Assembly: GCA_022827055.1 (NCBI GenBank) | Contig: JAJDTR010000097.1 | Coordinates: forward strand, 1-64,000 | Reading direction: 5' to 3' | Source of the DNA: Candidatus Poribacteria bacterium | GTDB taxonomy: Bacteria; Poribacteria; WGA-4E; JAJDTR01 | Length of the DNA: 64,000 bases | In this document: piece after piece, positions 1,482 to 18,640 of the stretch | How the letters are laid out: each line of letters starts with the position of its first letter | Position numbering within the stretch: the first letter of the stretch is position 1 | Made by a program: the position numbers and the translations under genes | Notes under the pieces: generated by a model | Database searches by the model: none | Seen by the model: only the letters and a program-made list of their open reading frames with translations | What the model was told of the DNA's origin: nothing

Positions 1482-4400
1482 TCACTTGAGTTTCAACGTA
1501 TCATCCACCTCGGCAAGTAACTCGTTAATCTTCTCCACTGCCTCCGGATCCGGCCGGGTTTCGCCGCCGAACTCAATACGGATATTAAACTTTAGACCTG
1601 TCCCGACAGCGGCCGTAGTAATGTCAGGTATCTGATCCGCCAAGTCCTGGATGCCGTGCGCTTCCAGCTCCGCCGTGGCAACTAGAACGTCCCGCGGATA
1701 CGGCGGCGGGTCGGGGACGTGAATCTCCTGCGGGATTTCAAGCTGGACATGCTGGGCGCTAGCGAATTCGCAAGGCCAGGCCGCACTGTCCTCGTTTAGC
1801 TTAATCCAGTTCGCCTGAATTGCGTCGCTGATCGCCGTCTTCACCGTGTGCCAAGGAAGAGTTAGCCCTTCCTTGTTGGAAAGCGCAGTAGCAAGCGCGA
1901 GTGCGTTAGTTTTCCTGTTCTGCCACGCCTTGGGGATTGCGGTGTCCATCAACTCTTGAACCGGAATCGGGGCGGGCGGCGGTCGAAACGACGCCGAGGC
2001 GCTAAGCACGCCGGGGGGCACGGCTTCATTCAGGATTGATGCCGGCCCGCTGGTCAACCACAACGTCCCCTGCTCGACAGCTTGGGACACCGCAGCGTCA
2101 ACCTCCGCCGGTTCGCATTCGGGTATGCTGAGCGGTTCTTCGTAACCCTCTTTTGGAATGTTCACGACACGTCCCCCCGCAAAGTAGTCGTATAGATTTT
2201 GGACGGTAATCTCGTCGGATGACCAAAGCTCCGGCAATTCGTTATGCTTGAGCAGACCTGGCGACAGTTCGCTCAACGTTGCCGACTCGGGCAACAGCAC
2301 CTCAAGCCCCGGCTCCTTGAGCGCGGATTCATCGATAGCCGTGCGCCAGAAGGTCTTCGTCGTCCTATCCGGACGCGCGTATCGTGCTACCCAAATCCCC
2401 TGTTGGACGCCGCCCACCACCGTATCCATAACCGCTTTTGGACGCAGCATCTTGGGCAGTTTTGGGGATTGGGCAAAGGCGCCCACCAAATCTCTGACAC
2501 GGCGCGACTGTTCACCTTCGCGCCACAGGTCGTAGGGACCGCCGGGCAACATCGCCTCCGCGCTGATGGCGGTCTCTTGGATGCGGGACCGTTTGTCGGC
2601 TTTGATGATTGTAAACAGGGGTTCATCGGTCACCGCCACTTTGAAGGCGTGAATCTCGTTGCTCTCGTTGACCGTCACCACGATAGAGTACGCGTGTTTG
2701 ACCGCATCCGGGATGCGCTTTCGCGCCGTGTCCGTCTCTCGGAGCAGCATCTGTTCGCGGATGGGATCAATCTGCTGATCCCTGAGTTGACTTCGGACCT
2801 CCTCCCAACCCAGATACTCGCGGACACGGTTGCGTACCACCTCAAGCCCATCCTTGGAGGGTACAGCGAGCACGAGCGCGTTGCGATTTGCGCGTGGACG
2901 GTCGTCTGCCGTTGTTTCATTAATGTACCGTTTGGTTTCGGCGCTCGGTTTGCCCGACTCCGAGACCGCACTTGGCGCCAGAACGGCGTAGTGGAATTCT
3001 CCATCGTCCGCGATGTCGCGCGGCCGCTCTGGAAGCGTGTGAACCTTCGCACCGGCGGCAGAGGCGCCTGAAGTGAGAGCCTTCTGTTTCTCAATAGCCT
3101 CAATGATCTTTGAATCGATTAGACTGGCGGGAACGCGGGTGGTGCAGGCGGCGTGGTGCATCTGACGCAGGTTGGGACGATTGCCCAGCCGCCACGCCTT
3201 CGGCAACGCCGCGGCGCCATCGGCATCGGATTCTCCAGTGTCAATCTCCTGCTCATCCAGAAACCATGACAACTCCGTCCAGCGGCGGAGCGCTTTTCCC
3301 AGCTCAATCTTATCCGGTTTAGCGGCGCCAATCAGCCTTACTAACTCCGGCGTCAGTGCCTTCTGACCGATCGGCTGTGAGCTGAGGAAAACCGAGATTA
3401 CCGCCTGCTCTATTTCGCGACTTGCGAGACCGGTCGTCTCGGACTGAATCGTACGTGCTTTTTCCAACTCCCCCTCAAGAATTGGTCCCCATTCCTGTTG
3501 TTGACCCGATGCCGAATCTACGCTCGCAAAGGAGGAAAGTTCGCTTGTAGCGTCGGCGAGGTCGCTTTTTTCCGAATCAGTCAGAAAGACGTTTGGTCCG
3601 ATTAGCGGGCTGTTATCCCATTTTTCCGCATCGCGCAACGCAATGGCAAACGTGCGCAGGATGCCGCGCGTACGCTGGAATCTTTCCAGTTGTGTCCAGC
3701 GGGTGTACAGGGTTTCGGTGAGCGCCGGGTGGAAGGGGTAACTGTCCAGATACCGTTTCTCCTCCGCCTTTTGCCCCTTCTTCGTATCCTCGTCAAGCGC
3801 CGCGATGCCGCGCAAGACCGCCGTAACTTGCGGTCGGAATGCATCCTGATCTTGCATGGATTCCAGTGTGAAGAAACGACGACGCAGCACCTCCGCCACG
3901 TCCTCCTTGCTCACCGGGCTGGCGTCCTCTTCCATCTGCCTGCCGAAGATATCGGACACGTCGGCGAAGAGTTCGCTACCGAGGTTTTTGTGCTTGTTGG
4001 GATCGGAGGCGCGCAACGATGCCACCATGGCGCAGCGATCCACCTTTACCACCGAACTCGTGAGGTGTTGGAAGAAACTGAGCAAGCGTCCTCGCCAATT
4101 CGAATCGGTTTCAACCATGTCGCGAAGATACATGAGCACCTCATCTAGGAGCACCAGCGTCCCGAGATTGTCTCGTTGTGGTTTCGACAGCAGATCTGAT
4201 AATACGGGTTCTGCCGGCGGCGTATCGCGCTCAAGATCTTTGCCATCGGCGTGCAGCAACCGCAGCCCCTCTTCGCCAGCAATCTGATAGGCGAGGATGC
4301 TCCAGGGACGCTTGAGTATTCGAAGAGATTCGTCGGGTCCGAGTGTTTCGACACCCTTTTCCGGATCAATCTTGTCGAAACACAACGCAGCGCACCGAGC

Positions 4401-4781
4401 GGACGGAGGCGTGTGTCCGATGTGCGCTTCAAACTCCGTAATTGCGGGCAGGCTTGGCAGTGCGGCGGGGCGCTCTAACAGATGCTTGAGCGTAATGAGC
4501 GTATGCGTTTTACCGCCGCCGTAGTTGACGGAGAGTGTGCGGTACGCCTTGTCGCTCTGACGCGCCAACCGCAGCGCGACATCCTTGACCAGTTCCCGTA
4601 GGTTATACGTGGGATAGGTGAGTGTGAAGAACTCGGCGGGATCCTCGTAAACCGAGCGTTTACCCTTTCGCATTACCACGTCGTACAGGTCGGCGGCGAA
4701 CACCGCCAGCGAAAGTTCACCGGTTCTCACATCGTCGCGCAGTTGGACGACCTGGTGCCACGGTTTCCATGTCGATCTCAT
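1482..4781 (-). CDS. DUF499 family AAA+ ATPase, defence-associated (COG1483-like)
   Basis: A 1099-residue P-loop ATPase, the last gene of the minus-strand defence island. Walker A is the glycine-rich GGGKTH at residues 88-93 and Walker B is VLLDEV at about 210-215, followed by further conserved ATPase segments; the C-terminal 400 residues are not assignable by eye. DUF499 proteins are known from defence islands, where they accompany DUF1156 methylases and Snf2-type helicases, and they resemble BrxC/PglY ATPases of BREX and Pgl systems. Here the methylase and helicase are upstream on the same strand. The ATPase probably powers a DNA-sensing or DNA-remodelling step; this is inference from the family. 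GAGGAT lies about 10 bases before the ATG. Confidence 0.85.
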   Translation of the reverse strand: MRSTWKPWHQVVQLRDDVRTGELSLAVFAADLYDVVMRKGKRSVYEDPAEFFTLTYPTYNLRELVKDVALRLARQSDKAYRTLSVNYGGGKTHTLITLKHLLERPAALPSLPAITEFEAHIGHTPPSARCAALCFDKIDPEKGVETLGPDESLRILKRPWSILAYQIAGEEGLRLLHADGKDLERDTPPAEPVLSDLLSKPQRDNLGTLVLLDEVLMYLRDMVETDSNWRGRLLSFFQHLTSSVVKVDRCAMVASLRASDPNKHKNLGSELFADVSDIFGRQMEEDASPVSKEDVAEVLRRRFFTLESMQDQDAFRPQVTAVLRGIAALDEDTKKGQKAEEKRYLDSYPFHPALTETLYTRWTQLERFQRTRGILRTFAIALRDAEKWDNSPLIGPNVFLTDSEKSDLADATSELSSFASVDSASGQQQEWGPILEGELEKARTIQSETTGLASREIEQAVISVFLSSQPIGQKALTPELVRLIGAAKPDKIELGKALRRWTELSWFLDEQEIDTGESDADGAAALPKAWRLGNRPNLRQMHHAACTTRVPASLIDSKIIEAIEKQKALTSGASAAGAKVHTLPERPRDIADDGEFHYAVLAPSAVSESGKPSAETKRYINETTADDRPRANRNALVLAVPSKDGLEVVRNRVREYLGWEEVRSQLRDQQIDPIREQMLLRETDTARKRIPDAVKHAYSIVVTVNESNEIHAFKVAVTDEPLFTIIKADKRSRIQETAISAEAMLPGGPYDLWREGEQSRRVRDLVGAFAQSPKLPKMLRPKAVMDTVVGGVQQGIWVARYARPDRTTKTFWRTAIDESALKEPGLEVLLPESATLSELSPGLLKHNELPELWSSDEITVQNLYDYFAGGRVVNIPKEGYEEPLSIPECEPAEVDAAVSQAVEQGTLWLTSGPASILNEAVPPGVLSASASFRPPPAPIPVQELMDTAIPKAWQNRKTNALALATALSNKEGLTLPWHTVKTAISDAIQANWIKLNEDSAAWPCEFASAQHVQLEIPQEIHVPDPPPYPRDVLVATAELEAHGIQDLADQIPDITTAAVGTGLKFNIRIEFGGETRPDPEAVEKINELLAEVDDTLKLK

Positions 4782-4981
4782 CGTCGTGTTATCCTCATTC
4801 GTTGAAAGACGATTCCCTGTCTATAGTGCGTAGGTTGGGTTGAACGGAATCGACAAAAACTACTATCATTACACTTCGATTTGTGGCTTCGATCCCGCCT
4901 GAAATCTCACAAATCTGGTGAAACCCAACACTTCATTACCTTAGCCCCAACGAGGCGATACGTAGCAACTCAGGTCAGGCA

Positions 4982-5632
4982 TCAAATAATCTCTCGAATT
5001 TTGTCTCGAAAATACTGGAAACTCGGCGATGCGTTGGCATCTACATCCATGTGCGGCGAGACATTCTCCGCCCATGTCGATTTTTCCCGACCCACTGCCC
5101 GCCATCCCCGCCTCTTGAGTGCCTCTGAGCCTTTGATGAATACGGCATCTGCCATGAGTTCCCACGTTCCGCAAATCGCGTCGTTTTTGTACCCATTCAA
5201 TACATTATCCCTAGCTTTCGGATAAGCCGCCTTAATCGCGGGCATATCGCCGAGCAGCCACGCTTCGCCCTCCTCCACGGCAATGCAAAACCGCGTCGTC
5301 GGTTTCGGATTGCACGCGTTTAGGACGGCAAAGAGTTCTTGGCGAAAGGTTTTCAGACACTTGTCATCCAAGTCGCACACCAGAATCACCGCTGCCGGAT
5401 GGTTAGAGGGATATCCGGCAAAGGTACGCCCATACCCCCGGAGTAGCCTCGGAAGTTGATCGAGCAGAATTCGCTCCCCCGCATCGGTGCCGCTCTGGAG
5501 GTTCCTGGGAATTCGCCCGACGCCTCGGTAAGGAATAACTTTGAATGTGTGTTGGTTCCCGATAATCTTGGGCATCAAAATATCAAGCGCCCTCTTTCCG
5601 GAGGAATCTTCGACGAGAATCTCAAAGTGCAT
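4982..5632 (-). CDS. DUF4276 family TOPRIM-like protein
   Basis: A 216-residue partner of the ATPase encoded just upstream; only 4 bases separate the ATPase stop from this ATG, so the two are translationally coupled. The N-terminus ILVEDSSGKRAL has the TOPRIM-type acidic residue (E8), VILVCDLDD (about 83-90) gives the DxD motif, and CIAVEEGEAWLLGD (about 117-129) is the typical DUF4276 signature. DUF4276 proteins paired with RecF/OLD-like ATPases resemble abortive-infection pairs such as AbiL, RloAB and PARIS in layout, where the TOPRIM protein is the nuclease-like effector. Nuclease activity is inferred. Confidence 0.8.
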   Translation of the reverse strand: MHFEILVEDSSGKRALDILMPKIIGNQHTFKVIPYRGVGRIPRNLQSGTDAGERILLDQLPRLLRGYGRTFAGYPSNHPAAVILVCDLDDKCLKTFRQELFAVLNACNPKPTTRFCIAVEEGEAWLLGDMPAIKAAYPKARDNVLNGYKNDAICGTWELMADAVFIKGSEALKRRGWRAVGREKSTWAENVSPHMDVDANASPSFQYFRDKIREII

Positions 5633-5636
5633 CCGA

Positions 5637-6917
5637 CTACCTCGCGTCCAGATAGTCGCTGTACCATAACCCGCCCAACGGCAATCCCTCGGCGGCCATG
5701 TTGTTCACAATCGGATCGTCGCTGGCGCGGCGAATCGTCGAAAAGCCGTCGGCGCCCTTCTCCAGAATCCATACCTCCTCCGGCTCAAGTGCATCGACGA
5801 AGTACGGCTGGTGCGTCGTCACAAACACCTGCGACCTCCTTCTGCGCCGACTGGCGTGTTTACGGAATTCGCTCGCTAAGGTTTCCAAGAGTTTGTGATA
5901 CAAGCCGTTCTCCGGTTCTTCGATGCACAGGAACGGGTGTGGTGTCGGATCTTCAAGCAGGAGGAGGTAGGCGAATAGCTTCAGCGTGCCATCGGAGACC
6001 TGCTGAGCGTAGAAGGGATCTTGAAAGCCCCTGTCGTTGAATCGGAGCAGCAGTCTGCCATCGCTGGTCCTTTCAGTATCAATCCGGTCGATGCCGGGAA
6101 TTTTATCCGCGATTCCGTTCAGGATCGCCTTGAAACGCCCCGGATGTTCGCGCTCCATGAATTGCACCACATTGCCGAGGTTGTCGCCGTGGATATTGAG
6201 ATGCTGCTGGGGACCCGCCAGCGGCAGGCTGCGCGCCGCGTCCGGCGTGAAGTAGCTGAGATGCCATCCTTCAATAAACCGGCGAAAATCCGAAATCCTC
6301 GGATGCTGTTTCAAAGCGCCGAGCGTGGCAATGCCGAGCTTACGCCGATCTTCCAATTGGATGAACTCAATCTCCCTAGATTCGTCAAATTTTATCAAGC
6401 TTCTAAAGCCGTCAGAATCAAGCCTTTCCATTTCTTCGTTAATTGGCTGCCCCGCGAGTGGCCCATTCCATGCGTAGCCCATTCCATTTCTGAGGTACAA
6501 AAAATAATATGGCAAATCGACTTGGTTGCCTTTTGGTTCATGACTAAGGCGTTCTCGCCAGACGTATGGGCGTCCGGAATCGTCCACTTTAATAGCGATT
6601 TGATAAGTAACGGAGGGGAGATTTTCGTGTTCTCTGTAGAGCACTTCAAACTCAATGGGACCGGTTTCGCCTTGCGACCGCAACGTCTCAAAGCCGCCGC
6701 GCCCCCGTTGGTCGCATGCCTCCTCGACACCGGATTTGAGGGCATCGGCAAGGAACCCGATCGCATCGAACAGCGCGCTCTTGCCGACCCCGTTCTTACC
6801 GATCACCGCTGTCATGCCGGTAAGAGGTTTACCCTCTGGCTGCTTCCACAACCGCCCGAGCGTGACATCCTTGAGCACCTTGAAATTCCTTACTCTGAAC
6901 CCTTCTATCTTTGCCAT
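5637..6917 (-). CDS. OLD/RecF-like AAA ATPase paired with DUF4276
   Basis: A 426-residue SMC/ABC-type ATPase. Starting at MAKIEGFRVRNFKVLKD, it has Walker A GKNGVGKS (40-47), an ABC-signature-like VSDGT (307-311), Walker B LCIEEPENGL (330-339) and the switch histidine in TTHQP (367-371). The frame is open to 6989, but the motif FRVRNFK normally lies at the extreme N-terminus, so the ATG at 6917 is preferred. Together with DUF4276 it forms a two-gene cassette set between the methylase and DUF499 genes of the island. The ATPase would be the sensor or regulator and DUF4276 the effector, by analogy with AbiL/PARIS-type pairs. Confidence 0.85.
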   Translation of the reverse strand: MAKIEGFRVRNFKVLKDVTLGRLWKQPEGKPLTGMTAVIGKNGVGKSALFDAIGFLADALKSGVEEACDQRGRGGFETLRSQGETGPIEFEVLYREHENLPSVTYQIAIKVDDSGRPYVWRERLSHEPKGNQVDLPYYFLYLRNGMGYAWNGPLAGQPINEEMERLDSDGFRSLIKFDESREIEFIQLEDRRKLGIATLGALKQHPRISDFRRFIEGWHLSYFTPDAARSLPLAGPQQHLNIHGDNLGNVVQFMEREHPGRFKAILNGIADKIPGIDRIDTERTSDGRLLLRFNDRGFQDPFYAQQVSDGTLKLFAYLLLLEDPTPHPFLCIEEPENGLYHKLLETLASEFRKHASRRRRRSQVFVTTHQPYFVDALEPEEVWILEKGADGFSTIRRASDDPIVNNMAAEGLPLGGLWYSDYLDAR

Positions 6918-7298
6918 GTTACAAGCCTTATGCGGAATCTGACCGGGACTTACCAGTAGGGAACGCTTATCTGCGTTCCTCACAACCATTTCGCCTACGG
7001 GCGCCGGACGACAAATCTGTTATTGCCGCGAGTTTATATTATAATATGTGATCGCTCTAGGTCAAGGCGTCTATTTTTTGAGGTCAATAACGCCTGAATC
7101 TAGATGTATAAACATATTCGATTTCAAATCACAAGTTGCCTCCCTGTAGGAGCGACCTCCCGGTCGCGACCTCGCGCCATGGGCAGCCATGAAGGTTAGG
7201 TTGAACAATCAAGCGAGTAAATAGCGAACAAGATTTTCTATCGCCCTCCCTATTCGGTCGGTTGATCCCGCCGGAGCTTTTAGAGAAAATCCCGCCCC
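6918..7298. other. Intergenic stretch with dispersed repeats
   Basis: No gene is visible. It contains a hairpin GCGACC-tccc-GGTCGC (7152-7167), part of a GTAGGAGCGACCTCCCGGT-type repeat, and from about 7202 a degenerate copy of the AAGCGAGTAAATAGCGA / CTATCGCCCTCCC dispersed repeat seen in several other gaps. It separates the methylase gene from the ATPase/DUF4276 pair, which may therefore need its own promoter. Confidence 0.55.
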
Positions 7299-10200
7299 CT
7301 ATTCGCTCTCCGCATGCGGTATATACATCTGCCCCGGTTCCCGAACTTCCCCCTGCGCCGCGACATGATTGCTCAACGCCTCAAGAATCGACCGCTCCTC
7401 CGACCCCTCGTCCGCCAACTCGATAAGCGCCTGGAGAATCTTGTTGAAAAGCGCGTCCCGCTGGAGACCGCGTTCGCTAAGGTAGTTGTCCACCTTGACC
7501 TGCTCCCCGGCGCGCCAGAGGTGCATCAGCTTGTGGGCTTGGTCGATGAGCGGCACCGGTTGCCCGCTCGGCGCTTCAAGACCCAAGTTGCGCTGCCCCC
7601 GGCGCTGCCACGGTTTGAGTTTGACCTTAGCGCCGCCTCCGCTTTCCGCTTCCTCGACGTCCTCGGCTTCAAGCGCGTCAGCCGTGCTTCCCGCCCCCGA
7701 TTGAGCCAAAAGGTCGTGCTGATTGACCAGCGCGGAGTCCGACAGGTTGCACGACAGCGCGTAAAGGATGCAGCCGCCGACCGGGGCATCCCCCATCCCG
7801 AAATCGTGGCGGTGGAGCAGGTAATACGTCGTCACGTCATCCAATCCTGCCGTAACCTCCTCCTCGCCATCTTGCGTTAGCACGCGACCGACGACGAAAT
7901 CGACCACCATCCGCCGTACCTCGCGCAGAAACTCCGAGACGCTCATCAGTTCGCCTTCGGTATCCGCCTTCTTGACGACCGGGTGCTTGCTGAAGGCTTC
8001 CAAGGCGGGACCTGTGGCTGCCCACACGAAATCGGGTCCCCGAATACCGGCGTCCCAGAAGTCGTGGAGTTGCCCCGTGATGTTCGTCCGCATCTCGTCA
8101 AGCACGTTGGAGTCCCAGCCCGGGCGGGCAGGTGGACGTTTTTTACATACCAGCCAAATAGACGATGCGAGCGCCGCCGATGTCTGTGCACGCATTCGAG
8201 CGGTTTGTTCCGTCTGAACTGGCCAACTTCCATCAACGACAAAGCCAGAACGAATGACAGCACCAACCAGTGTTTCCCACGCCTCGGGTCTTTTGTTGGC
8301 GAATACAATTACCAAGCGGCCGGTCGCGTTTAAGCGTTCCCAACAACGCCGAAATGCCTCAGCCATACCTCGTTCGTAATTCTCCTTTGATACGGTGCTA
8401 TCTCCGTTGAACCGACCTGCATCATCAATTAGTTCTCCGTCAGAAATTTCGTGGTTCCACTTTGGACCGGCACTCTTGGAAAAGGTGCTGGCGAAACCGT
8501 TGTTCGTATTCCCAATAGTTCTTCTGTTCCAAACATAGAAATAGTCCATAAGGTCCGAGTAAGGAATCGCGTCATAGTAAGGCGGATCTGTGATGATTAC
8601 ATCAAAGGTATCGGAGTGTTTCGCAGATGATGCGCTTCCAACTATAACTCTTGGATCTGGAGCGAGGTCGTTTGTAGCTATCGTGGCGGTTTCTAAGGCT
8701 TTACAAACAGCGTCAATGCACATAATCCATCCGCCCCGCACGTCATTATAGGGGACAGCCTCGGAATAATCCCAAGTTATTGGCAGCGCATACCGCACAA
8801 AAACATGTCCGATTGCCTCAACGCTAGTGATCCAAGACAGTATCGTGGAGTTGAAGTCAAGCATTCGGTCAAATCCACATGTGAGAATACCTACTATCGC
8901 TTGGCTCCAGTTGTAATCGTCATGATATTGATGAACAACGTCATCTGTTTCACGGATTTTGCTAACGAACTGCCCTAGACACAGAAGTTGCCGATTTGTG
9001 AACAACTTACGCCACGTATCAAACCCGTAGCCATCTACCGAAAATGCGCGGGATGCCCCGATCCCGGCTTTCGGAGTTGGCTCTTCCGGCAAACCGAAAG
9101 GGATGTCGGCGTAGAGAGCACGAAGTTGCTCCTCTGTCACTTGCGCTACGGTGCATTCATGGTCTGTCGGGAGGCGGTACTCCTTCCCCTTCTGCCCCTC
9201 TACCACGACAGCCGTCATCACCGCGTCCAGCCGCCCGGCGCGTCCCTCTAGCCGGATATCCTCCATCGTCATAATCATGCCGCAACACGGGCAACTTGCG
9301 CCGGTACGCGACATGGTGCCGGCTCCAAGGCGCTTGTCGTTTTCCCGCCGCTGCGCGCTGTTCCCGCCGTTTTGGGGCACGTCGGTCTCCACGCCAAACA
9401 GGACGCCGGTTCCTTCAGCGTTAGGTTCCATCGTCAACAGCACGCGCTTCCGCTCCTTCTTGCACAGCCAGCGCGTTTTGAGCAGCGGTAGCACCGCGCG
9501 GCAACCTTTGCAACTCACGGTACGCGCCCACAGGTAAGCCACCGTCGGCTTGGCAATCCAGCGCGGATTGCGCGGGTTCTTGAGGTAATCGTCGTCGAAC
9601 TCAAAGTTGAGCGAATCAATCTGCGGTACGCCGTCCTCGTCAACCTCCAAGAGTTGCGGAGGGGTCGGCTCGTAGTCCTGGTCGGGGTCGAGCGGTTCGC
9701 ATTCGGCGTAGGTGGGGTAGTACGCCGCCAACTCCGCCCGCGCCTTTGCCATCACCCACCTCCCCCAAGCGCGGACGTGCCACGCCAGGTCGGCTCGGAG
9801 CAATTTGTCGTCGTGGGGAAGGTGTTCCAACTGGATTACGTCCCCGTCGCCGTGGCCCAGTCGTTGGAGCGCTGTCCGCAACCGGTCGCTCTTGAATCCC
9901 TTGGCTTTCAGGTAGGATTCCATGAATCCGCGGTCCGCCACCGCGAAATCCGGCAACGGTCGCGTCTGCCCCGCCAGTTTCTGGGGGTATTCGAGCGTGC
10001 ACTTCAGGATGAACCACGCCACCGGATTGATGTCCATGGCGGTGACCTCGCAGCCGAGGCGCATGGCTTCCAGCGGGATAGCGCCGCCGCCGGCAAACGG
10101 GTCCAGCACCTTAGGAGCGCGTCCGCCGTAGGCTTTGCGGATCTCGTCCCGGAACCACTGGAGCGCGGGGTCATTCTCTTTGCCCCAGTGGAGGATGCCG

Positions 10201-10499
10201 CCCTCGGTTACCTCTTTGGTCTTCTCAATGTCCCTGCCGTTCAGACGTTTGCGTTCCGTCTTCTCGACGACTCTGCCAGCCATCCGTTCCAGGATGGCTT
10301 TGCGTTCGTCGTCGTTGCCCGGGTCGGGCAGCAGCGTGGCGATGAGCGCCGCGCGTGCGGCTGCCAGTGGTCGGCGTGCGGGCCAAATGTGCAGCGTGGA
10401 GATGTGCCCGTGCCGCACATTCTTCTCGTGCACCGAGTCGAGCGACACCTGCTTCAGCGGGAATGCGACTTCTATGAGGCGTTTGTCGTTAGTTGGCAT
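7299..10499 (-). CDS. DUF1156 Zn-ribbon adenine-specific DNA methylase (COG1743-like)
   Basis: A 1066-residue predicted N6-adenine DNA methyltransferase. The SAM-binding motif I is VLDPFAGGGAIPLEA (131-145), preceded by the family-typical N-terminus VAFPLKQVSLDSVHEKNVR and IWPARRPLAAARA. The catalytic motif is DPPY at about residue 634. Two cysteine pairs in the middle (SCKGC and CPCC) match the Zn-ribbon that defines the family. In known defence islands such methylases pair with DUF499 ATPases and Snf2 helicases, all present here. It probably marks self DNA or takes part in an exclusion reaction; a dedicated restriction nuclease is not evident. A short gene lies 15 bases upstream and is probably co-transcribed. 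Confidence 0.88.
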   Translation of the reverse strand: MPTNDKRLIEVAFPLKQVSLDSVHEKNVRHGHISTLHIWPARRPLAAARAALIATLLPDPGNDDERKAILERMAGRVVEKTERKRLNGRDIEKTKEVTEGGILHWGKENDPALQWFRDEIRKAYGGRAPKVLDPFAGGGAIPLEAMRLGCEVTAMDINPVAWFILKCTLEYPQKLAGQTRPLPDFAVADRGFMESYLKAKGFKSDRLRTALQRLGHGDGDVIQLEHLPHDDKLLRADLAWHVRAWGRWVMAKARAELAAYYPTYAECEPLDPDQDYEPTPPQLLEVDEDGVPQIDSLNFEFDDDYLKNPRNPRWIAKPTVAYLWARTVSCKGCRAVLPLLKTRWLCKKERKRVLLTMEPNAEGTGVLFGVETDVPQNGGNSAQRRENDKRLGAGTMSRTGASCPCCGMIMTMEDIRLEGRAGRLDAVMTAVVVEGQKGKEYRLPTDHECTVAQVTEEQLRALYADIPFGLPEEPTPKAGIGASRAFSVDGYGFDTWRKLFTNRQLLCLGQFVSKIRETDDVVHQYHDDYNWSQAIVGILTCGFDRMLDFNSTILSWITSVEAIGHVFVRYALPITWDYSEAVPYNDVRGGWIMCIDAVCKALETATIATNDLAPDPRVIVGSASSAKHSDTFDVIITDPPYYDAIPYSDLMDYFYVWNRRTIGNTNNGFASTFSKSAGPKWNHEISDGELIDDAGRFNGDSTVSKENYERGMAEAFRRCWERLNATGRLVIVFANKRPEAWETLVGAVIRSGFVVDGSWPVQTEQTARMRAQTSAALASSIWLVCKKRPPARPGWDSNVLDEMRTNITGQLHDFWDAGIRGPDFVWAATGPALEAFSKHPVVKKADTEGELMSVSEFLREVRRMVVDFVVGRVLTQDGEEEVTAGLDDVTTYYLLHRHDFGMGDAPVGGCILYALSCNLSDSALVNQHDLLAQSGAGSTADALEAEDVEEAESGGGAKVKLKPWQRRGQRNLGLEAPSGQPVPLIDQAHKLMHLWRAGEQVKVDNYLSERGLQRDALFNKILQALIELADEGSEERSILEALSNHVAAQGEVREPGQMYIPHAESE

Positions 10500-10514
10500 G
10501 GGTTAACAGAACTG

Positions 10515-10706
10515 TCAATCTTTCTTCAATTTTGCGGTGCGTTGAGTTTCAGCGGCGCGTCTCAGGGAATGCAAATCTACAACCTGCTGACCCTTGCCCC
10601 GCTTTTTGGATTGGAGATGGGCGACTAGAGCACGGATGTCGTAGCTGTGTTCTCGGGCGATGCCATCTTTGATTTTCCAGAGTTCCTTGATGATTTCGTC
10701 AGGCAT
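10515..10706 (-). CDS. Short conserved protein upstream of the methylase
   Basis: A 63-residue, highly charged protein beginning MPDEIIKELWKIKDGIAREH and followed by YDIRALVAHLQSKK. Its start resembles a widespread family of small uncharacterised bacterial proteins (pattern DxIIxELxxIRxxxxxxxNYDI) often found beside toxin-like or defence genes. An in-frame TTG two codons upstream is possible but the ATG is preferred. It ends 15 bases before the methylase start. Function unknown; an antitoxin-like or regulatory role is only a guess. Confidence 0.6.
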   Translation of the reverse strand: MPDEIIKELWKIKDGIAREHSYDIRALVAHLQSKKRGKGQQVVDLHSLRRAAETQRTAKLKKD

Positions 10707-10742
10707 TTTCAAGTGTTTCCATGAGTCTTAGAGAGTGCTTAA

Positions 10743-10951
10743 GAACCTGTTTGAAAAGTACAATTGTAGGGTGCACACTGCGCACCAGCCTCTAAAAGCC
10801 CCAGAGGGGCGGAAGGTGTGTAGAAACGCCAAAATCCCGTGTACCCAAGCCCCAGAGGGGCGACAGGTTGGTAGTAGACAAAAATAAAAACATGAAAAAC
10901 TGCCTACAAATAACCAAAAATGGCCTTGCTACCGATTATTCAAACAGGATC
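10743..10951. mobile_element. Miniature inverted-repeat element, family A, copy 1 (209 bp)
   Basis: The ends GAACCTGTTTGAAAAGT and ATTATTCAAACAGGATC are inverted repeats, flanked on both sides by TAA (10740-10742 and 10952-10954), a 3-bp TNA target duplication as made by some IS5-group elements. Inside are two copies of AAGCCCCAGAGGGGCG followed by rAAGGT/ACAGGT (about 10796-10816 and 10847-10867). No coding capacity. It sits between the TIR gene and the methylase operon. Confidence 0.8.
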
Positions 10952-11080
10952 TAAGTGGGAAGATGACTTTGATTAGAGATTTGTTGGTATATTCTTCCTA
11001 TCCAACTTCCCATCTCGACGCACTAGGGTTAGTGTATTTCTTTGAATAGACCGCCTGCCCTTTTACCGTCCTTACTTCAA

Positions 11081-13543
11081 CTATGGTTTTTGCAACGGAT
11101 TAGGCTGGTATTTAATATTTAGCGCCCGAAAGAGTTTCTCTCGCAATTTAAAATGAATTTCATGTGTGTTAGCATAATATTGTATCCCAAAAGAAAGTAA
11201 CCTTTTCGCAACAACATTCTGGTTTTTCTCAAACTTGCTTAGAGTGTCTATAATCTTCGTAACACTCTGAGAGTCTAGCTTTTCCGTGGTTTCTAAGAGA
11301 AAGAAAACATTGAGCAAATCGTAAGCAGGAGTGTCCTTTGGATTATACATGGTTTCCACAATCTCTTTTAACTCCGGTTTGCGAATGGAAGCCACGACCT
11401 TGTATAACAATGAGCCGATAGTTAAAAAAACGATGGTGCGGATTTGCTTCCTTAGAAATTTCTCAATCTTCCGTTTGTCGTCCTCTGGTATATCTTTATT
11501 CTTGAGTGCTTCAATTAAATAGCCTTCCAAACTCAGTATGCTATCACGATTGGTGCACGCATTGATTAGACGCAACCCGGCATCGGTTACGAAGTCAATT
11601 ACTTCTTCAATCTTTTCTCTAGGAAGGCTGCCGTACTTATTTCTCAAGATTTGCCCCAGAATCTCCATGTTCTTTAAGGCTTTGTAAATATCATTCAAAT
11701 CTTCATCGGAGAAGTCATCCTTCTCAGACTTACCATCGTTTGTAGACTCTTCTGTATCCTCCTCTGTTCTGTTTCGACGTTGTCGTTCTAATCGCCGCTC
11801 TTCTTCAACAGATTGATTGGACAGTATCTTTTCCGGCAATTCGCGTAGTGTATCTTCTAACAATTTGGTTTCGTTGATACTCAACGTGGCGGCTGCTGCA
11901 CGATTAAGAGTATCCGCCGTATGAATTAATACTGTATCAATTAAATCTTCATCCTGTGTATGATGGATGGTGAAAATAAGTATATATGCATTATCTTGCA
12001 AGTAGCTCTTTTCAGCGATTTCGCCAATGAGTCCTTCATGTACCTTATAATTTCGTGCAAAGAAATTTCCAAGGAAAAAGTAATAAATAAAGGGATAGTA
12101 AAATCGAAGTTTGCCTTTGTGAGTTCGTATTATTGATGAATTACTATCTACCAACCGGTTCACGACGCTTTCCTTTATTATATATTGAGCTTGGTAGTTT
12201 TCAAGGAATTGTTCAAATTGGTCTTGCGAACATCCATCGCGCCGTTTGTAAATTTCAAAAGCGAAATGGGTAAGGAAATTGAACGATGAATCAATATCTT
12301 CTTTTTGAATTCCGCGACTGATAAGTTGTGCTGTTATTAAGGCTTGATAACAGTGTCCGTAGGCTGTTATCTGTAAACTCTGGGGCATAAATGCTTCAAG
12401 TGTCTGAAGTATCGACAAGATGTAGAAGGGGTAGCGCGGGACAATTCTATTATGAAGTATTATCGAATTAAGCTTGTCTTCAATTTGATCAATTTGTCCA
12501 TGAGGAATTTCTTGCGTGTTACTAAGATTTATCCATCTCTTTATTAGATCTTCCTGTTTGGTGTGTCCCAAAGATCTTAGCGTCAACAAATCAAAATCGG
12601 CCAAGCTCTCTTCGTCGTGGAAATATGCGAGATAGTCATCCTCAGACATTACAATAATAATGCGGTCAAAAAACTCCTTGGCGAAGTCAATAAACTTTAA
12701 GCGCGTGTTGTGGCTGAAATCATCAAGGATAAGAAGTTTTGTCTGTTGGTTTCTCCAATACGAATAACTTCCATTGAATTGTTCCTGAAACTTCCGCTCA
12801 ATGAGTTTCTCATGATGGATTGGGCTCGTGATGTCGTTGCCGGAGATTAAAATAGTTGGGGTGCCGTCTTCGACTTCACTAAGAAACAGCTTTCGACAGA
12901 TTACAGTTTTACCGCTCCTTTCGTCGCCTTTTAGAATGACGTGCTTGCTTTTTTTCCAAAAATCTTGAAGTTCGCTTATTTTGCGCTCATCGTATTCGAC
13001 TCTTATATTTGGAAACACAAAAAGATCATCTAATTTTACATTTTCTTTGTGTTGTGATATGAACTCGACTTGAGTTAGCTCGTTCCTAAAAGCCTTTTTT
13101 ATGCAGAAGGGAATTGCATCCACAATGGCTTTGATATTCTCGTATATGTCGAGAAATGCGTCATCTTCATTGTCCCACTTAGTAATGGCCTTGCCATCTT
13201 TAGGTATCGCTCGCAGGTGGGAGATTGTTTGTAAATCTTTCCACGCACATGGACGTGCAATTACGGGGATGACGGTGGCGTTGGCTTTCTCCTTTTGCTC
13301 TAAGGCTTTACGCATCTCCCTTTTGCATTCGCGGGATGCGAAATAATCAGGACTTAACAGTAATAGAATTAGGTCAGACGATTCTAGATGAGTATCTATT
13401 TCTTTGTGAATATCCTGACCTGCTAGAATCCTTCGGTCATGCCATTCGTCTATATGACCTTCGTCTTTAAGAATGGAAAGGTGCTTCTCAATGCGTTCAC
13501 GTGGATGCTCATCCTTGTGGCAGTAACTATAAAAAAGTTTCAT
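11081..13543 (-). CDS. TIR domain-STAND NTPase defence protein
   Basis: An 820-residue protein with an N-terminal TIR domain (about 1-140; MKLFYSYCHKDE start, SPDYFASRECKREMRKAL with E76 in the position of the catalytic glutamate) and a STAND-type NTPase (Walker A GDERSGKT 206-213, Walker B LLILDD 270-275). The C-terminal half is alpha-helical with a charged linker near 560-600 and would be the sensor. Bacterial TIR proteins of this kind cleave NAD+ on phage sensing and stop growth; that activity is inferred. The gene is visibly more AT-rich than its neighbours, suggesting separate acquisition. GGAGG lies 11 bases before the ATG. It is bordered by a small element downstream. Confidence 0.85.
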   Translation of the reverse strand: MKLFYSYCHKDEHPRERIEKHLSILKDEGHIDEWHDRRILAGQDIHKEIDTHLESSDLILLLLSPDYFASRECKREMRKALEQKEKANATVIPVIARPCAWKDLQTISHLRAIPKDGKAITKWDNEDDAFLDIYENIKAIVDAIPFCIKKAFRNELTQVEFISQHKENVKLDDLFVFPNIRVEYDERKISELQDFWKKSKHVILKGDERSGKTVICRKLFLSEVEDGTPTILISGNDITSPIHHEKLIERKFQEQFNGSYSYWRNQQTKLLILDDFSHNTRLKFIDFAKEFFDRIIIVMSEDDYLAYFHDEESLADFDLLTLRSLGHTKQEDLIKRWINLSNTQEIPHGQIDQIEDKLNSIILHNRIVPRYPFYILSILQTLEAFMPQSLQITAYGHCYQALITAQLISRGIQKEDIDSSFNFLTHFAFEIYKRRDGCSQDQFEQFLENYQAQYIIKESVVNRLVDSNSSIIRTHKGKLRFYYPFIYYFFLGNFFARNYKVHEGLIGEIAEKSYLQDNAYILIFTIHHTQDEDLIDTVLIHTADTLNRAAAATLSINETKLLEDTLRELPEKILSNQSVEEERRLERQRRNRTEEDTEESTNDGKSEKDDFSDEDLNDIYKALKNMEILGQILRNKYGSLPREKIEEVIDFVTDAGLRLINACTNRDSILSLEGYLIEALKNKDIPEDDKRKIEKFLRKQIRTIVFLTIGSLLYKVVASIRKPELKEIVETMYNPKDTPAYDLLNVFFLLETTEKLDSQSVTKIIDTLSKFEKNQNVVAKRLLSFGIQYYANTHEIHFKLREKLFRALNIKYQPNPLQKP

Positions 13544-13683
13544 GTCGCTCTAAACCTCCTGGTTATTCGTTTGTAGTAGTACCCCAAAACTTCCAAATTC
13601 TAGATAAGCCAATAGGGTTTTCTGTTTGTAAATGCCGTCTTTTCAGCGCGGAATGAACGACAACATCGCACTCTTCGCGACAA

Positions 13684-14292
13684 CTACTGATGATTACTAG
13701 AAACAAGCTGACCTTCCTTGTCAAATTGCAGGGGATTGATACGTCGATAAATATTTAACCTAACATCTTCGCGCATACCCGCCTCGACAATATGCAAGAC
13801 AAGCTGGGATTCTTCGATTCGCCGTTGCATCTGCCTCGGAAGGTTGTTATAACGCTTTCCGTTGAACCGCACGAAATATTCTAATTTCTTTAAGGGAAAT
13901 TCGTTTGTGACGTAGTTGTAAATTGCCGACAGCCGTTGGACGCCATCAACCACCGACCAGTTATAACTCTCATCTGCAGCAGCGTAAAACACGGGGATGG
14001 GGATCCGAAGGAGCAGAGACTCTATCAATCGAGATTGGCGCACCAAAGACCAAGCAGACGCGCGTTGAACATCCGAATCCCAATAGATTTCACCATTCCT
14101 GATTTGCGAGATGAGCCGTTCCACGCTGACATAGGTTGTTCCAAATCTTACCTCGGCGGGATCTAATGGGCATTCACTCTCAGTGTTTGAATCGTCCAGT
14201 TCCGCTACTAAACCGCTGTCTCGTTCTGCCTCAATATTGTCATTCTTGCCGGTTGCTGATTCGAATGCGTTGGGGCGTGTTTCCTCGGTCAT
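13684..14292 (-). CDS. DUF262 (GmrSD-N/ParB-like) protein, C-terminally truncated
   Basis: A 202-residue protein whose middle shows the DUF262 fold: the WDSDVQRASAW segment, then VVDGVQRLSAIYNYV corresponding to the usual DGQQRLT motif, and NIYRRINP near the end. In typical members the RIN motif is followed by TGG-x-L-x-x-QE and 100 or more further residues; here the frame diverges after RIN and stops 16 residues later. The N-terminal 45 residues are acidic and low complexity. DUF262 domains occur in type IV restriction enzymes (GmrSD) and in abortive systems. This copy may be a remnant or a regulatory fragment; the core motif is also changed (GVQ for GQQ). Confidence 0.65.
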   Translation of the reverse strand: MTEETRPNAFESATGKNDNIEAERDSGLVAELDDSNTESECPLDPAEVRFGTTYVSVERLISQIRNGEIYWDSDVQRASAWSLVRQSRLIESLLLRIPIPVFYAAADESYNWSVVDGVQRLSAIYNYVTNEFPLKKLEYFVRFNGKRYNNLPRQMQRRIEESQLVLHIVEAGMREDVRLNIYRRINPLQFDKEGQLVSSNHQ

Positions 14293-14358
14293 TTCAAAAC
14301 CTAATCCTTTTGAAAGTCTTTAATTCCTTCATCGGAAAGAAAGCAATTGGTGCAGAAC

Positions 14359-14375
14359 GGTGGGCAGTGCCCACC
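14359..14375. repeat. Short perfect palindrome in the gap upstream of the DUF262 gene
   Basis: GGTGGGCA and TGCCCACC flank a single G. The unit GGTGGGCAGTGCCCACC followed by CTACAAT has the look of a dispersed hairpin repeat. No terminator-like T-run follows on either strand. Confidence 0.5.
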
Positions 14376-14454
14376 CTACAATTAAGTTGACTATCTAATT
14401 TTCACTATACACCAATGAACCGTCGTAAGACAACCGAAAACAGCGTTGAGATGC

Positions 14455-14751
14455 CTATATCTTCCGATTGACATTGAGGTTAAACTGATCGCCGGCAGGC
14501 GGAGGAACCCATCCATTTCGCACCAGCGCGTCGAAGTAATCACGCCTATCCTGATCGGGCGTCTCACTCTTATGCATCACGGCAGTATAGATAATGTTGA
14601 CGGTTCTTCTACGCCGCATTGTGTCTGTCCCGATTTGACCGTCAGCAACGGCGGTTGTGAGTGATTGCAGCCTGTAACCGTCTTTTTCCAACTGGTTGAT
14701 TTGAGTTTCCATTTCGGATGGTCTGTTATACACTTCAAAGATCTTGTACAT
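14455..14751 (-). CDS. Small DUF4177-like protein
   Basis: A 98-residue protein starting MYKIFEVYNRPSEMETQIN with a DGYRLQSLTTAV segment and an IIYTAVMHKSE beta-strand end, the pattern of the small DUF4177 fold (a ferredoxin-like sheet with a W/Y-E-x-hydrophobic motif). Function unknown. Without the small element inserted at 14791-14992 its start would lie about 36 bases after the helicase stop, so it was probably the second gene of the helicase operon. GGAGG lies 14-15 bases ahead of the ATG, which is long. Confidence 0.6.
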   Translation of the reverse strand: MYKIFEVYNRPSEMETQINQLEKDGYRLQSLTTAVADGQIGTDTMRRRRTVNIIYTAVMHKSETPDQDRRDYFDALVRNGWVPPPAGDQFNLNVNRKI

Positions 14752-14790
14752 GTTAAAACCGAATGCCTCCTGTAAGGATAATGATGGTTA

Positions 14791-14992
14791 TACCGTTTCG
14801 CTTGAATAATAGTGCATACCATGTCTCAAATAAATCGATCACTTACCCCGTAGGCGGGGATCAACCGAACGAATAGATCAAGTGACCAAATAGTGAACGC
14901 GATGGAAATCCCAAGGCGATAGAGATTCCCGCGCCCCGTCTTGACCGCCTTGATTGATGCTACGTATGCGCTGAGAATATAGAAAAATGGTA
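14791..14992. mobile_element. Miniature inverted-repeat element, family B, copy 1 (202 bp)
   Basis: Left end TACCGTTTCGCTTGAATA and right end TAGAAAAATGGTA are imperfect inverted repeats flanked by TTA on both sides (14788-14790 and 14993-14995). The same ends and the internal CCGTAGGCGGG segment recur at 58545-58680. The right TTA is the complement of the helicase stop codon TAA, so the element is inserted exactly there. Its middle also carries a copy of the GATCAAGYGA...GCGATAGAGAT dispersed repeat. Confidence 0.75.
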
Positions 14993-17900
14993 TTATTCGG
15001 CTGCCTCCATAATATCTCCCGGTGAAATGGTGAAGGCAGATAGTTCGCGGCTGCGAACGAGGAGTTTGCCGAACGGATCGCGCACCCGAACGAGCCGAGG
15101 CCGCGGCGTCGCACAGTCGAAAACGGTGTACAGCCAGTAATCGTCCCTCAGGTTACATGCGCGCGCCCACTCGTTGTCGGAGATATGCACATTACCTGAA
15201 CCGGCGCGCCCCTTGACCTCAATGGCGCGCTCCTCGACGGATACATCGGCGCCCACGGGATGGCGAGACTTCAGATCAAAACCGGGCCAATCCGTCAACC
15301 CGGCGCGGCGGGCGAGTTCCGGCTTCGAGACATCCGTTACCTCGGCGCCGAGACTCTCCTCGTAGGCGGTGGCAACCTTCACCGCGATAGCTTCAACATC
15401 GGCATCGTAACGCTCAAGCTCCTCCGTCCCCTGAACTGGTACCACCAAGGCGTGCACCAGGATTTCGACTTCACCCACTTGAATGAGCTCCGGTTCGGCT
15501 CGCAGTTCGGCGAGGCACCGGTCTCTGGAGGCGGTCAGACGGCGCTGGCGCCCTTTGACGGCCGCGAGTTCCGCCCCCGCGTCCCGATTCCCGTCGCGCA
15601 CCAGTTGGTTCAGCCGCGATCGGGCAGCCGCAAGTTCGGCAGCCTGAAAATCAAAGCCGCGATTGACCGACTCGGCGCGCGCGGTCAGATTGTCGAGTCG
15701 TTCCCCTCGATGGAGTTGCACCATCCGATCGCCTATCTCCTCACGCGCAAACGTCAAGGCGTCTGCCGCCATGCCGCGCGCCAACGTAGCAAGCGGTACG
15801 CGGCTCGGCGCGAATCCCTTCGCGCCCCTGAGCAGCAGCAGGTGTTCCACCGGAAGTTCGGTCACGCCCCCATCGCTTGATTGGCGCAGCCCGACCAACC
15901 GCGATTCCAGGGGCTTGGGCGCGTTTTCACTTTGACCATGTTCGTCAAACAGATTAGCCGCCTCCGTTTCTCCGTTGCCCCGCTGTTCGGCGGAAACCCG
16001 CGCGATGTGGAACAGATACGCCTCCGTCGCGTAGGGATCGCTAAACACGGCGCCCTGTCGTCCGGCACGCCCAAACCGCTCTAGGATGGCATCCGAGAGA
16101 CAATCAAACACCGGCTCGCCGGGGTGCATCCATACGGCCTCCTCTCGATTCGCCGGTTTGTTGACCGTGAGCAGTTCGCGTGCACTCGCCGAATACCGCT
16201 CAAGCGAGGCGAGCAGGGGATCGGTTGCGCCGGGTCGGTCAGGTATCAAGCTGAAGGCGGTGTCCGGATCCCCCTCGATACGCAGATCGAGCAGCGGTGC
16301 GGCACGCTCCACGAATCGGCGCACGTAGCCGGGGAGCAGATGACGGTAGATTTCCTGATCGGTTTCCTTGTTGAGTTGCGGCAGCCGCTGACGCACGTCG
16401 CCGCCATCCCCGTACAGGATACGCTCCTTATGTTCGAGCGCCAGAACCTGATTCTCCGTAAGCTCTCCCTCCAATTTCTGGGCGACTGCATCGGCATCTT
16501 CGGTGAGCGCCTGTCGCAGATAGTCCGTCATCGACACCTCCTCAAACAGACGCCCCACCACGTCGAACACCTTGTCGGATTGTAGTTGTTCCCGGATAAC
16601 CTCCAACTTCTCCAGCAACGATCTCAGCACCCGTCCCTCGCGCGTACCGCCCGCCACGAGATTGAGGATCACCACCGGGTCGTGTCTTTGACCGTAGCGA
16701 TGAATGCGTCCCATCCGTTGCTCGAGCCGCGCCGGGTTCCACGGGATATCGTAGTTCACCATCAACCAGCAGAATTGGAGGTTGATTCCCTCACCGGCTG
16801 CGTCCGTCGCCACGAGGTAGTTTGCCCCGCCTTCCGCCGCCGACTGTCGGAAAAACTCGACCTGCCGCTCGCGTTCCTGATAGTCCAATCCGCCGTGGAT
16901 GAGCGCAACCTGATCGGTGAATCCGAGTCCTTCGAGCCGACGCACCAAGAATTCCGCCGTGTCGCGGTACTCGGTGAAGATGATAAACTTCTGGTCGCTG
17001 TAGTTCGAATCGCGAAGCACCTCCCGCAGTTTCTCGAACTTGGATTCTTCGCCGGCACCAAACAGCCTCTGTGCCTTCTTCAGTAACTCCTCAACTTTGT
17101 GCTTCTCCACAATCAGTTCGGCGAGGCTGACGGCTACGGTGCCGCCTAGCGCCTCGTTCTCATAATCTTTGTGCTCGTCCTCGGTCTTCTCATCGGCGGT
17201 CGCCGTACTGAAGAGGTCGTCAAGATCATCTAATTTCCGCTGCTGATTGGCGAGTTGCGCCTCGGTGAGTTCCCCGTTTCGGAGGTTCTCAATCAACCCG
17301 TCGAGGTTTTCTTTGCGGCGCTCGAACGATCGCATGAGCGCATAGGTGGAGCTGGCGAGACGGCGTTGGAAGACGCTCATCGCCAAACGTGCGGCGGAAC
17401 GATTCAGAACTCCCGCGCGGTTGTAGTAGTCGCGGATGTATTCCGTCGTTTCGTCATACAGTTCCTGTTCGCTTCCTGAGCCATCCAAGAGATTGTAGCT
17501 CAACGTGTCGCAGTTTCGCTGCGGGTACAGGGGTTTCCCGTTGAAATGGAGCATCTCCTCCTTCGTGCGGCGGATGAAATGTCGCTCGTGAGATTCACGG
17601 GGAAACCTGTCGAAAGCGTCGTGCGTTGAAAGCGTTTCCGGTAGCAGCAGACGCCACAGAAAATAGTAGGGAGAATCCTTACCCATGTGCGGAGTTGCCG
17701 TCAGCAGCAGCAGGTGTCGGGCTGACCAAGGCAGTTCCCAGTGCTCTCCGTCTGCTTCGGCACCGGCGATGGCTTCCGCCAGCCTGTACCGGTTCGTTTT
17801 GCGGACTCGGTAATCCGGTTGGCGGACCGCGGACAGTTTGTGTGCCTCGTCAAAGACAACGAGATCGTAGGGTTCGGTTTGGAGGTCCTTAAGATGATTG

Positions 17901-18574
17901 AACACCCGCTCCGTGACCAAGGTGTCCACGCTGACGATGACCCGATCGCCTTCCGGACCGCTAAAAGGATTTCCGGTTCGCGCATCCTCGCCCCTGATGA
18001 TGCGGAACGACAGGCGAAACAGCTTTCGCATCTCCTGTTCCCAATTTCCCACGAGACCGGCGGGCGGCACGATGAGTATGCGGCGAATCAGTCGGCGGGA
18101 CAACATTTCGCGGACGTACAACCCCGTCATGATGGTCTTGCCGGCGCCCGCGTCGTCCGCCAGTAGGAATCGCAGCGGCGTCTGTTCCAGCATTCTTTCG
18201 TACACGGCGATGCGCTGATGTGGGAGCGGGTCGATTAGCGAGGTTTCAGTGGCGAATGCCGGGTTGAAGAGGTGGCCATAGGCGAGACGGTGCGCCTCCG
18301 CGACTGCCGCAACGGCGTTCGGATCGGCGGCGAAGTCCATGCTCGGCGCATCCTCGGTTACGGGTTGCACCTCTTGACGCCCGTGACTGGACTCCGTCAG
18401 TTCTAGGATACGCTTCCACGCCAATTGGTTTGGGCGCGACTGTCCATTCTCCCACCGATTGACGGTGGCGAAGGAAACGCCGACGAGTTCCGCGAATTGG
18501 GTCTGTGTCAAGCCTTTCGTCTCGCGGAGGTCTTTAATTTTCTGGGGATAATCGTCTGGTATAACGGTTGACAT
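14993..18574 (-). CDS. HTH-Snf2 helicase-DUF3883 defence protein
   Basis: A 1193-residue protein with three parts. Residues about 12-65 form an XRE/Cro helix-turn-helix (LRETKGLTQTQFAELVGVS, then NRWENG). The centre is an Snf2/HepA-type helicase: ADDAGAGKT (motif I), VVFDEAHKL (II), LLLTATPH (III) and QRMGRIHRYGQ (VI). The C-terminal 150 residues contain AIEVKGRAG and the NEWARA pattern of DUF3883, a domain with a restriction-endonuclease-like core. Helicases of this type accompany DUF1156 and DUF499 genes in known islands. The fused XRE domain with an inverted repeat over its own promoter suggests self-regulation. The ATG at 18574 is preferred over 18607 because the HTH begins right after it. 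Confidence 0.87.
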   Translation of the reverse strand: MSTVIPDDYPQKIKDLRETKGLTQTQFAELVGVSFATVNRWENGQSRPNQLAWKRILELTESSHGRQEVQPVTEDAPSMDFAADPNAVAAVAEAHRLAYGHLFNPAFATETSLIDPLPHQRIAVYERMLEQTPLRFLLADDAGAGKTIMTGLYVREMLSRRLIRRILIVPPAGLVGNWEQEMRKLFRLSFRIIRGEDARTGNPFSGPEGDRVIVSVDTLVTERVFNHLKDLQTEPYDLVVFDEAHKLSAVRQPDYRVRKTNRYRLAEAIAGAEADGEHWELPWSARHLLLLTATPHMGKDSPYYFLWRLLLPETLSTHDAFDRFPRESHERHFIRRTKEEMLHFNGKPLYPQRNCDTLSYNLLDGSGSEQELYDETTEYIRDYYNRAGVLNRSAARLAMSVFQRRLASSTYALMRSFERRKENLDGLIENLRNGELTEAQLANQQRKLDDLDDLFSTATADEKTEDEHKDYENEALGGTVAVSLAELIVEKHKVEELLKKAQRLFGAGEESKFEKLREVLRDSNYSDQKFIIFTEYRDTAEFLVRRLEGLGFTDQVALIHGGLDYQERERQVEFFRQSAAEGGANYLVATDAAGEGINLQFCWLMVNYDIPWNPARLEQRMGRIHRYGQRHDPVVILNLVAGGTREGRVLRSLLEKLEVIREQLQSDKVFDVVGRLFEEVSMTDYLRQALTEDADAVAQKLEGELTENQVLALEHKERILYGDGGDVRQRLPQLNKETDQEIYRHLLPGYVRRFVERAAPLLDLRIEGDPDTAFSLIPDRPGATDPLLASLERYSASARELLTVNKPANREEAVWMHPGEPVFDCLSDAILERFGRAGRQGAVFSDPYATEAYLFHIARVSAEQRGNGETEAANLFDEHGQSENAPKPLESRLVGLRQSSDGGVTELPVEHLLLLRGAKGFAPSRVPLATLARGMAADALTFAREEIGDRMVQLHRGERLDNLTARAESVNRGFDFQAAELAAARSRLNQLVRDGNRDAGAELAAVKGRQRRLTASRDRCLAELRAEPELIQVGEVEILVHALVVPVQGTEELERYDADVEAIAVKVATAYEESLGAEVTDVSKPELARRAGLTDWPGFDLKSRHPVGADVSVEERAIEVKGRAGSGNVHISDNEWARACNLRDDYWLYTVFDCATPRPRLVRVRDPFGKLLVRSRELSAFTISPGDIMEAAE

Positions 18575-18593
18575 GTCTTTCACGATCCCTGTA

Positions 18594-18640
18594 GGTAAAA
18601 GGCACAACCTATTTTACCCTGTCCATCGTGTGCATGTCAA
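18594..18640 (-). promoter_or_regulatory. Sigma70-like promoter with a candidate XRE operator for the helicase gene
   Basis: On the minus strand TTGACA (18640-18635) and TAAAAT (18616-18611) are separated by 18 bases. A perfect inverted repeat GGTAAAA (18594-18600) and TTTTACC (18612-18618) overlaps the -10 element. A repressor bound there would block the promoter; the helicase's own N-terminal HTH is the obvious candidate. Confidence 0.6.

Follow-up and report, generated by a model that had tools for sequence, protein, structure and literature searches.

The question raised by this locus is whether a compact group of defence-type genes, all lying on one strand amid metabolic genes, represents an undescribed system, and which of its genes make up that system. 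The window, i.e., the whole stretch of 64,000 nucleotides that was analysed, comes from a Poribacterium, a sponge-symbiont-type bacterium. Gene calls and Pfam searches of the window confirmed every gene named in the initial annotation, all of them on the minus strand between positions 1482 and 18607 (Table 1); the intact 98-codon open reading frame (ORF) had been missed. An in-frame ATG of hmaA also exists at about 18574. According to Pfam, the flanks are metabolic, with a quinone-reductase-like ADH gene (344-1330) on one side and VanZ (19126) and IlvD (19818) on the other; the genes at 21991-23924 are presumably those of the futalosine pathway to menaquinone (mqnA/mqnC).

Table 1. Features of the island, with positions in the window.
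Feature	Position	Strand	Evidence
HmaC: DUF499 AAA+ ATPase, GGGKT at 88, Walker B near 209	1482..4781	-	Pfam, PADLOC, motifs
HEC-01B: DUF4276 partner; E8 and DxD at 87 would suit a TOPRIM-like effector	4982..5632	-	Pfam, PADLOC, motifs
HEC-01A: OLD-family ABC ATPase (OLD/AAA_21), embedded cargo	5637..6989	-	PADLOC, Walker A/B motifs
HmaB: DUF1156 DNA methylase, DPFAGGG at 133, DPPYYD at 638	7299..10499	-	Pfam, PADLOC, motifs
REP-like GCCCC..GGGGC dispersed repeat copy, slot 1	10783..10868	.	Repeat search
TIR-STAND: ThsB-like TIR, P-loop at 206, PDC-S60-like NTPase part; embedded cargo	11081..13543	-	Pfam, PADLOC, motifs
Truncated nsnA (DUF262/GmrSD_N) remnant	13684..14292	-	PADLOC, alignment to full-length NsnA
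98-codon small ORF between hmaA and cargo	14455..14751	-	No Pfam or PADLOC match
HmaA: N-terminal HTH_3, Snf2 helicase core, C-terminal NOV_C/DUF3883; putative helicase-nuclease effector	14993..18607	-	Pfam, PADLOC, motifs, tree
REP-like repeat pair, directly upstream of hmaA	18704..18851	.	Repeat search

Searches with the PADLOC models identified the helicase as HmaA (E = 4e-167, residues 88-1163), the methylase as HmaB (4e-115, 384 bits; Pfam DUF1156, 1e-18), and the DUF499 ATPase as HmaC (8e-74, 247 bits; Pfam DUF499, 5e-16). The Hma system (HmaABC) was named by Payne et al. in 2021 (PMC8565338), and a 2026 survey by Rakesh and Krishnan describes the same three-gene family as DUF499-centred BREX-related (BR) systems of three types; Type 1 has a helicase-nuclease effector, the helicase carrying a C-terminal active PD-(D/E)XK nuclease in 79% of cases (PMC12839542). 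The island shares with Hma/Type-1 BR the same three components on one strand, i.e., a DUF1156 methylase, a DUF499 ATPase, and a Snf2 helicase with a C-terminal NOV_C nuclease-type domain. The earlier statement that no described system has this composition is contradicted by these PADLOC matches and this literature, which rule out a new, unnamed core; judged from sequence, the core is a new member of the known Hma (Type-1 DUF499-centred BR) system.

A motif search disclosed catalytic motifs in HmaA, HmaB, HmaC, HEC-01A, and the TIR-STAND protein. Those of HmaA are a Walker A at residue 154, a DEAH at 253, and E1130-x-K1132 within the C-terminal NOV_C/DUF3883 domain, for which this motif and knowledge of the family suggest a nuclease role. 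The assignment to Type 1 was made because this domain, with its E-x-K, ends the helicase and because DUF3780, an HKD nuclease, and PglZ are absent. As had been stated for the BREX and DISARM markers, Pfam finds no PglZ, Lon, DUF1998, or PLD among the island proteins, and no DUF3780 either. Type-2 BR was accordingly rejected (no DUF3780, no N-terminal HKD nuclease on the helicase), as were Type-3 BR and BREX (no PglZ match in the island with Pfam or PADLOC) and DISARM, to which the only likeness is a DrmD-type helicase similarity, DUF1998 (DrmB) and PLD being absent. The DPFAGGG and DPPYYD motifs of HmaB constitute an amino-methylase signature, which agrees with the 2026 survey, whereas an m5C role had been predicted for the Hma methylase in 2021 (PMC8565338); the m5C catalytic motif was not found in HmaB, whose sole PC-type match is a zinc-finger-like CPCC. 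A structure search with the HmaB model (pLDDT 81) returned generic methyltransferases only, none with an E-value below 0.001.

That helicase, methylase, and DUF499 ATPase form a core, as had been supposed, is borne out by the gene order of related loci. Since a Pfam DUF499 search missed the island HmaC, a phylum-wide co-occurrence test with this domain was unsuitable, and a genome scan seeded with HmaA was used instead. The scan yielded 80 loci, spread over many phyla of bacteria and a few of archaea. Profiles built for the survey served to detect hmaB and hmaC in them, and loci were counted if they left 3 kb or more of room. Rather than lying far apart, the genes follow one another: hmaB is downstream of hmaA on the same strand in 62/62 loci with such room and hmaC comes next in 39 of the 40 with room, although, the loci having been chosen by HmaA similarity, these counts mean that an HmaA of this kind has its partners alongside and not the reverse. 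In the one exception (L124:17973-23552), two other large genes stand after hmaB in place of hmaC. The same A-B-C order was observed in Poribacterial loci fetched separately.

The ATPase/DUF4276 pair in the hmaB-hmaC gap (slot 2) is HEC-01 (Hma-embedded candidate 1 of PADLOC), from which it shows no notable difference: the two genes are adjacent, match their models over the full length (HEC-01A, E = 4e-183; HEC-01B, 2e-95), and lie between hmaB and hmaC. Because HEC-01 is already catalogued as Hma-embedded, the idea of a core plus cargo had been published; PMC12988326 cites Payne et al. 2024 (bioRxiv 10.1101/2024.01.29.577857) for the principle that embedding is a source of defence genes. The structure of HEC-01B predicted from its single sequence reached a pLDDT of only 38, and sequence searches found no solved-structure relatives of HEC-01A, HEC-01B, or TIR-STAND. 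The slots of other Hma loci hold genes that match known defence families, namely GajA, AbiJ, AbiEii, Piwi, TIR, Septu PtuAB, HEC-01, and others. As an example, a pair of 420 and 292 residues occupies the hmaA-hmaB gap (slot 1) in 11/17 Poribacterial loci of another HmaA clade and corresponds, in the one locus scanned, to Septu PtuA-PtuB, in agreement with the Septu association of Hma remarked in 2021 (PMC8565338). In slot 1 of two Poribacteria (L084:7486-11508 and L038:11138-15184), a metallophosphoesterase of 591 residues, with an N-terminal match to the PDC-S60 model, accompanies a GHKL ATPase of 747-755 residues, and the two are possibly an unnamed two-gene module.

Slot 1 of the window contains the TIR-STAND gene, in a region (12001-14000) with a G+C content of about 41%, against about 55% in the core genes. 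Its TIR matches the ThsB1 model of Thoeris and its NTPase part that of the PDC-S60 candidate; it differs from both in being one fused 820-residue protein, without ThsA and located inside Hma. Given its low G+C, its absence from all 80 surveyed Hma loci, and its relatives elsewhere (see below), the gene behaves as mobile cargo. Thoeris was rejected on the grounds of the missing ThsA match and of the fusion to a STAND-type NTPase. The initial annotation had regarded the TIR-STAND gene, the ATPase/DUF4276 pair, and the DUF262 gene as cargo inserted between core genes; this stands for the first two, given the turnover in a same-genus relative described below, and fails for the third. The DUF262 ORF corresponds, in an alignment, to residues 140-307 of the full-length NsnA (498 residues) of another genome (G004, see below), and neither the rest of nsnA nor nsnB is present in slot 1 of the window. 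Relative to the PADLOC NsnAB model, it retains the N-terminal DUF262 part of NsnA, truncated and deprived of NsnB; it is therefore best regarded as a remnant of an nsnAB module and should not be counted as a working one.

The small ORF is intact, has a GGAGG ribosome-binding-site-like sequence upstream, and is 93-94% identical in the same-genus relative, with a dN/dS of 0.10. It is present in 2 of 85 genomes of the phylum and absent from the other 83, which rules it out as a general fourth Hma component; on the evidence of this distribution and of dN/dS, it is a genus-restricted gene under purifying selection.

The comparison with related strains, which had been suggested as a check, revealed that in another Poribacterium of the same genus (G001) the operon occupies the same position, flanked by the ADH gene and by VanZ/IlvD, with its cargo swapped. 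HmaA, HmaB, and HmaC are 87%, 78%, and 83% identical to those of the window and the small ORF is kept, whereas all identifiable cargo differs, slot 1 of G001 harbouring a HATPase and a metallophosphoesterase, and slot 2 a ParE and an IS200-type transposase. The homology stops within some tens of bases of the small-ORF stop codon and of the start and the end of hmaB. Upstream of the G001 hmaA (L039:2671-4405), the gene of a 491-residue nuclease (PDDEXK_1/RNase_H_2) follows a duplicated piece of the HmaA N-terminus. A third operon, in RHO2_bin_7 (G004), a member of another family, has different neighbour genes; its cargo comprises nsnA and nsnB at full length, the HATPase/metallophosphoesterase pair also seen in G001, and HEC-01, the latter in the same slot as in the window. 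As regards a recent transfer of the island between the genome of the window (G000) and G004, the two are 85% identical in MqnC and 86% in HmaB. Three arrangements were thus observed, whose order of gains and losses we can only infer; no clean empty site was found among the order relatives, since those with an ADH orthologue lack the other neighbour genes. These comparisons suggest that the gaps between Hma genes act as docking slots, defence genes being swapped in and out between close relatives.

The methylase itself has been partly exchanged. Outside residues about 496-780, identity among the three HmaB sequences (window, G001, and G004) is mostly 70-98%; within this block of ~280 residues, the identity between the window and G001 is roughly 40%, down to 15% in places, against near 87% between the window and G004. 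The catalytic DPPYYD segment, which falls within the block, stays at 90%. This exchange relative to G001 might be read as a replaced target-recognition region; the published target-recognition insert sits before the DPPY motif (PMC12839542), and the block therefore overlaps it only in part.

As to the origin of the operon, the HmaA sequences of the window, G001, and G004 form one group (support 100) within a clade of Latescibacterota, Entotheonella, Binatota, Gemmatimonadota, Spirochaetota, and Chloroflexota, and 15 other Poribacterial HmaA are separated from it by a long branch (1.32 changes per column). This position with other phyla, apart from most Poribacteria, supports a horizontal acquisition, and the Hma operon of the island was probably obtained in this way.

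On the whole, the locus is best explained as a restriction-modification-like Hma (Type-1 BR) operon of a Poribacterium, probably horizontally acquired and provided with two cargo slots, a reading to which we assign a probability of roughly 0.88. As far as the biochemical steps and the protection from phages are concerned, we infer them all from the protein families. According to these families and to the 2026 survey (PMC12839542), HmaB would methylate an amino group of host DNA (DPPY; N6-adenine most likely), marking it as self; HmaC, an AAA+ ATPase, would assemble or drive a scanning complex; and HmaA, a Snf2 motor joined at its C-terminus to a putative PD-(D/E)XK-type nuclease, would move on and cut unmarked invading DNA. 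According to the same survey, anti-phage activity is reported for an HmaA-type helicase-nuclease. The N-terminal HTH of HmaA probably contributes to DNA binding or to regulating the operon. The slot genes would be separate second-line modules, likely abortive, HEC-01A/B consisting of a sensor ATPase of the OLD type and a nuclease-like DUF4276 protein, and TIR-STAND joining a sensor NTPase to an NAD-degrading TIR. The Hma core, the HEC-01 pair, and the embedding concept were already known; the new results are the comparison of three loci, the partial exchange of HmaB, the TIR-STAND gene, which extends the cargo list for Hma, the DUF262 correction, the 98-codon gene, and the position of HmaA in the tree. 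At one chromosomal site in same-genus relatives, embedded modules turn over and part of the methylase is exchanged while the core stays.

A different, rather unlikely explanation is that the cargo depends on the core: HEC-01 and TIR-STAND would be guards set off by phages that inhibit or evade Hma, much as PARIS responds to anti-restriction proteins, so that core and cargo would be one two-layer system. The location of the cargo between core genes and its replacement with borders at core-gene ends would fit such a role, as would the recurrence in BREX/BR loci of OLD-ABC and nuclease pairs, proposed as backup effectors (PMC12839542), and the sharing of both the HEC-01 slot and the HmaB block type with G004, a member of another family. 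However, the core of G001 is conserved with neither HEC-01 nor TIR-STAND, and (near) full-length relatives of TIR-STAND, with 37-42% identity, occur in three genomes (G026, G007, and G056) where a helicase search found no full-length HmaA. The three loci are a concrete set on which to tell guarding of the host system by embedded modules from simple hitch-hiking.

It is less probable still that the locus is a defence island like any other, having gathered Hma along with unrelated systems, and that the slots have no special role. Clustering of defence genes is known, and slot 1 is essentially empty (<100 nt) in 15/69 loci, but it measures at least 1 kb in 42/69, in many phyla, with the A-B-C order intact; its median is 1.5 kb, with more than 3 kb in 23/69 loci, and that of slot 2 is 0.46 kb.

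We are equally doubtful of a further reading, in which Hma would be an exchange platform: recombination, helped by REP-like repeats and IS200-type transposases located in the slots, would replace the specificity part of the methylase together with the embedded modules, as coupled cassettes, and the modules would guard the core. The window and G004 share the HmaB block type and HEC-01; G001, whose HmaB block is of another type, has other cargo in common with G004. The REP-like repeat has 46 matches in the genome; its copies crowd slot 2 of G004 (G004:C9:92603-99214) on both sides of HEC-01 and flank the IS200-type transposase in slot 2 of G001, and its single-strand fold is no stronger than that of shuffled sequences (z -1.1).

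That the core is distinct from Hma/BR and merely resembles it is very improbable: the island HmaB and HmaC do diverge from the PADLOC models and HmaA has an extra N-terminal HTH, but all three models are matched within one operon, 46/71 full-length HmaA relatives carry the HTH, and the canonical Hma helicases of other Poribacteria likewise end in NOV_C.

The Hma operon of the island is not the only one in this genome. A second, canonical Hma was found there, whose PADLOC scores (HmaB, 1076 bits; HmaC, 1129 bits) far exceed those of the island, which therefore represents a divergent branch. On the short contig of this second system (L200; G000:C144:1-12439), hmaA was not seen; HEC-01A and an unknown 810-residue protein are encoded in front of hmaB. 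Lastly, in another genome (G082, L201:4114-13581), a Snf2-NOV_C helicase is followed by a Type ISP-like methylase, with a short ORF at the place of the DUF499 match, i.e., an Hma-like locus with a different methylase.
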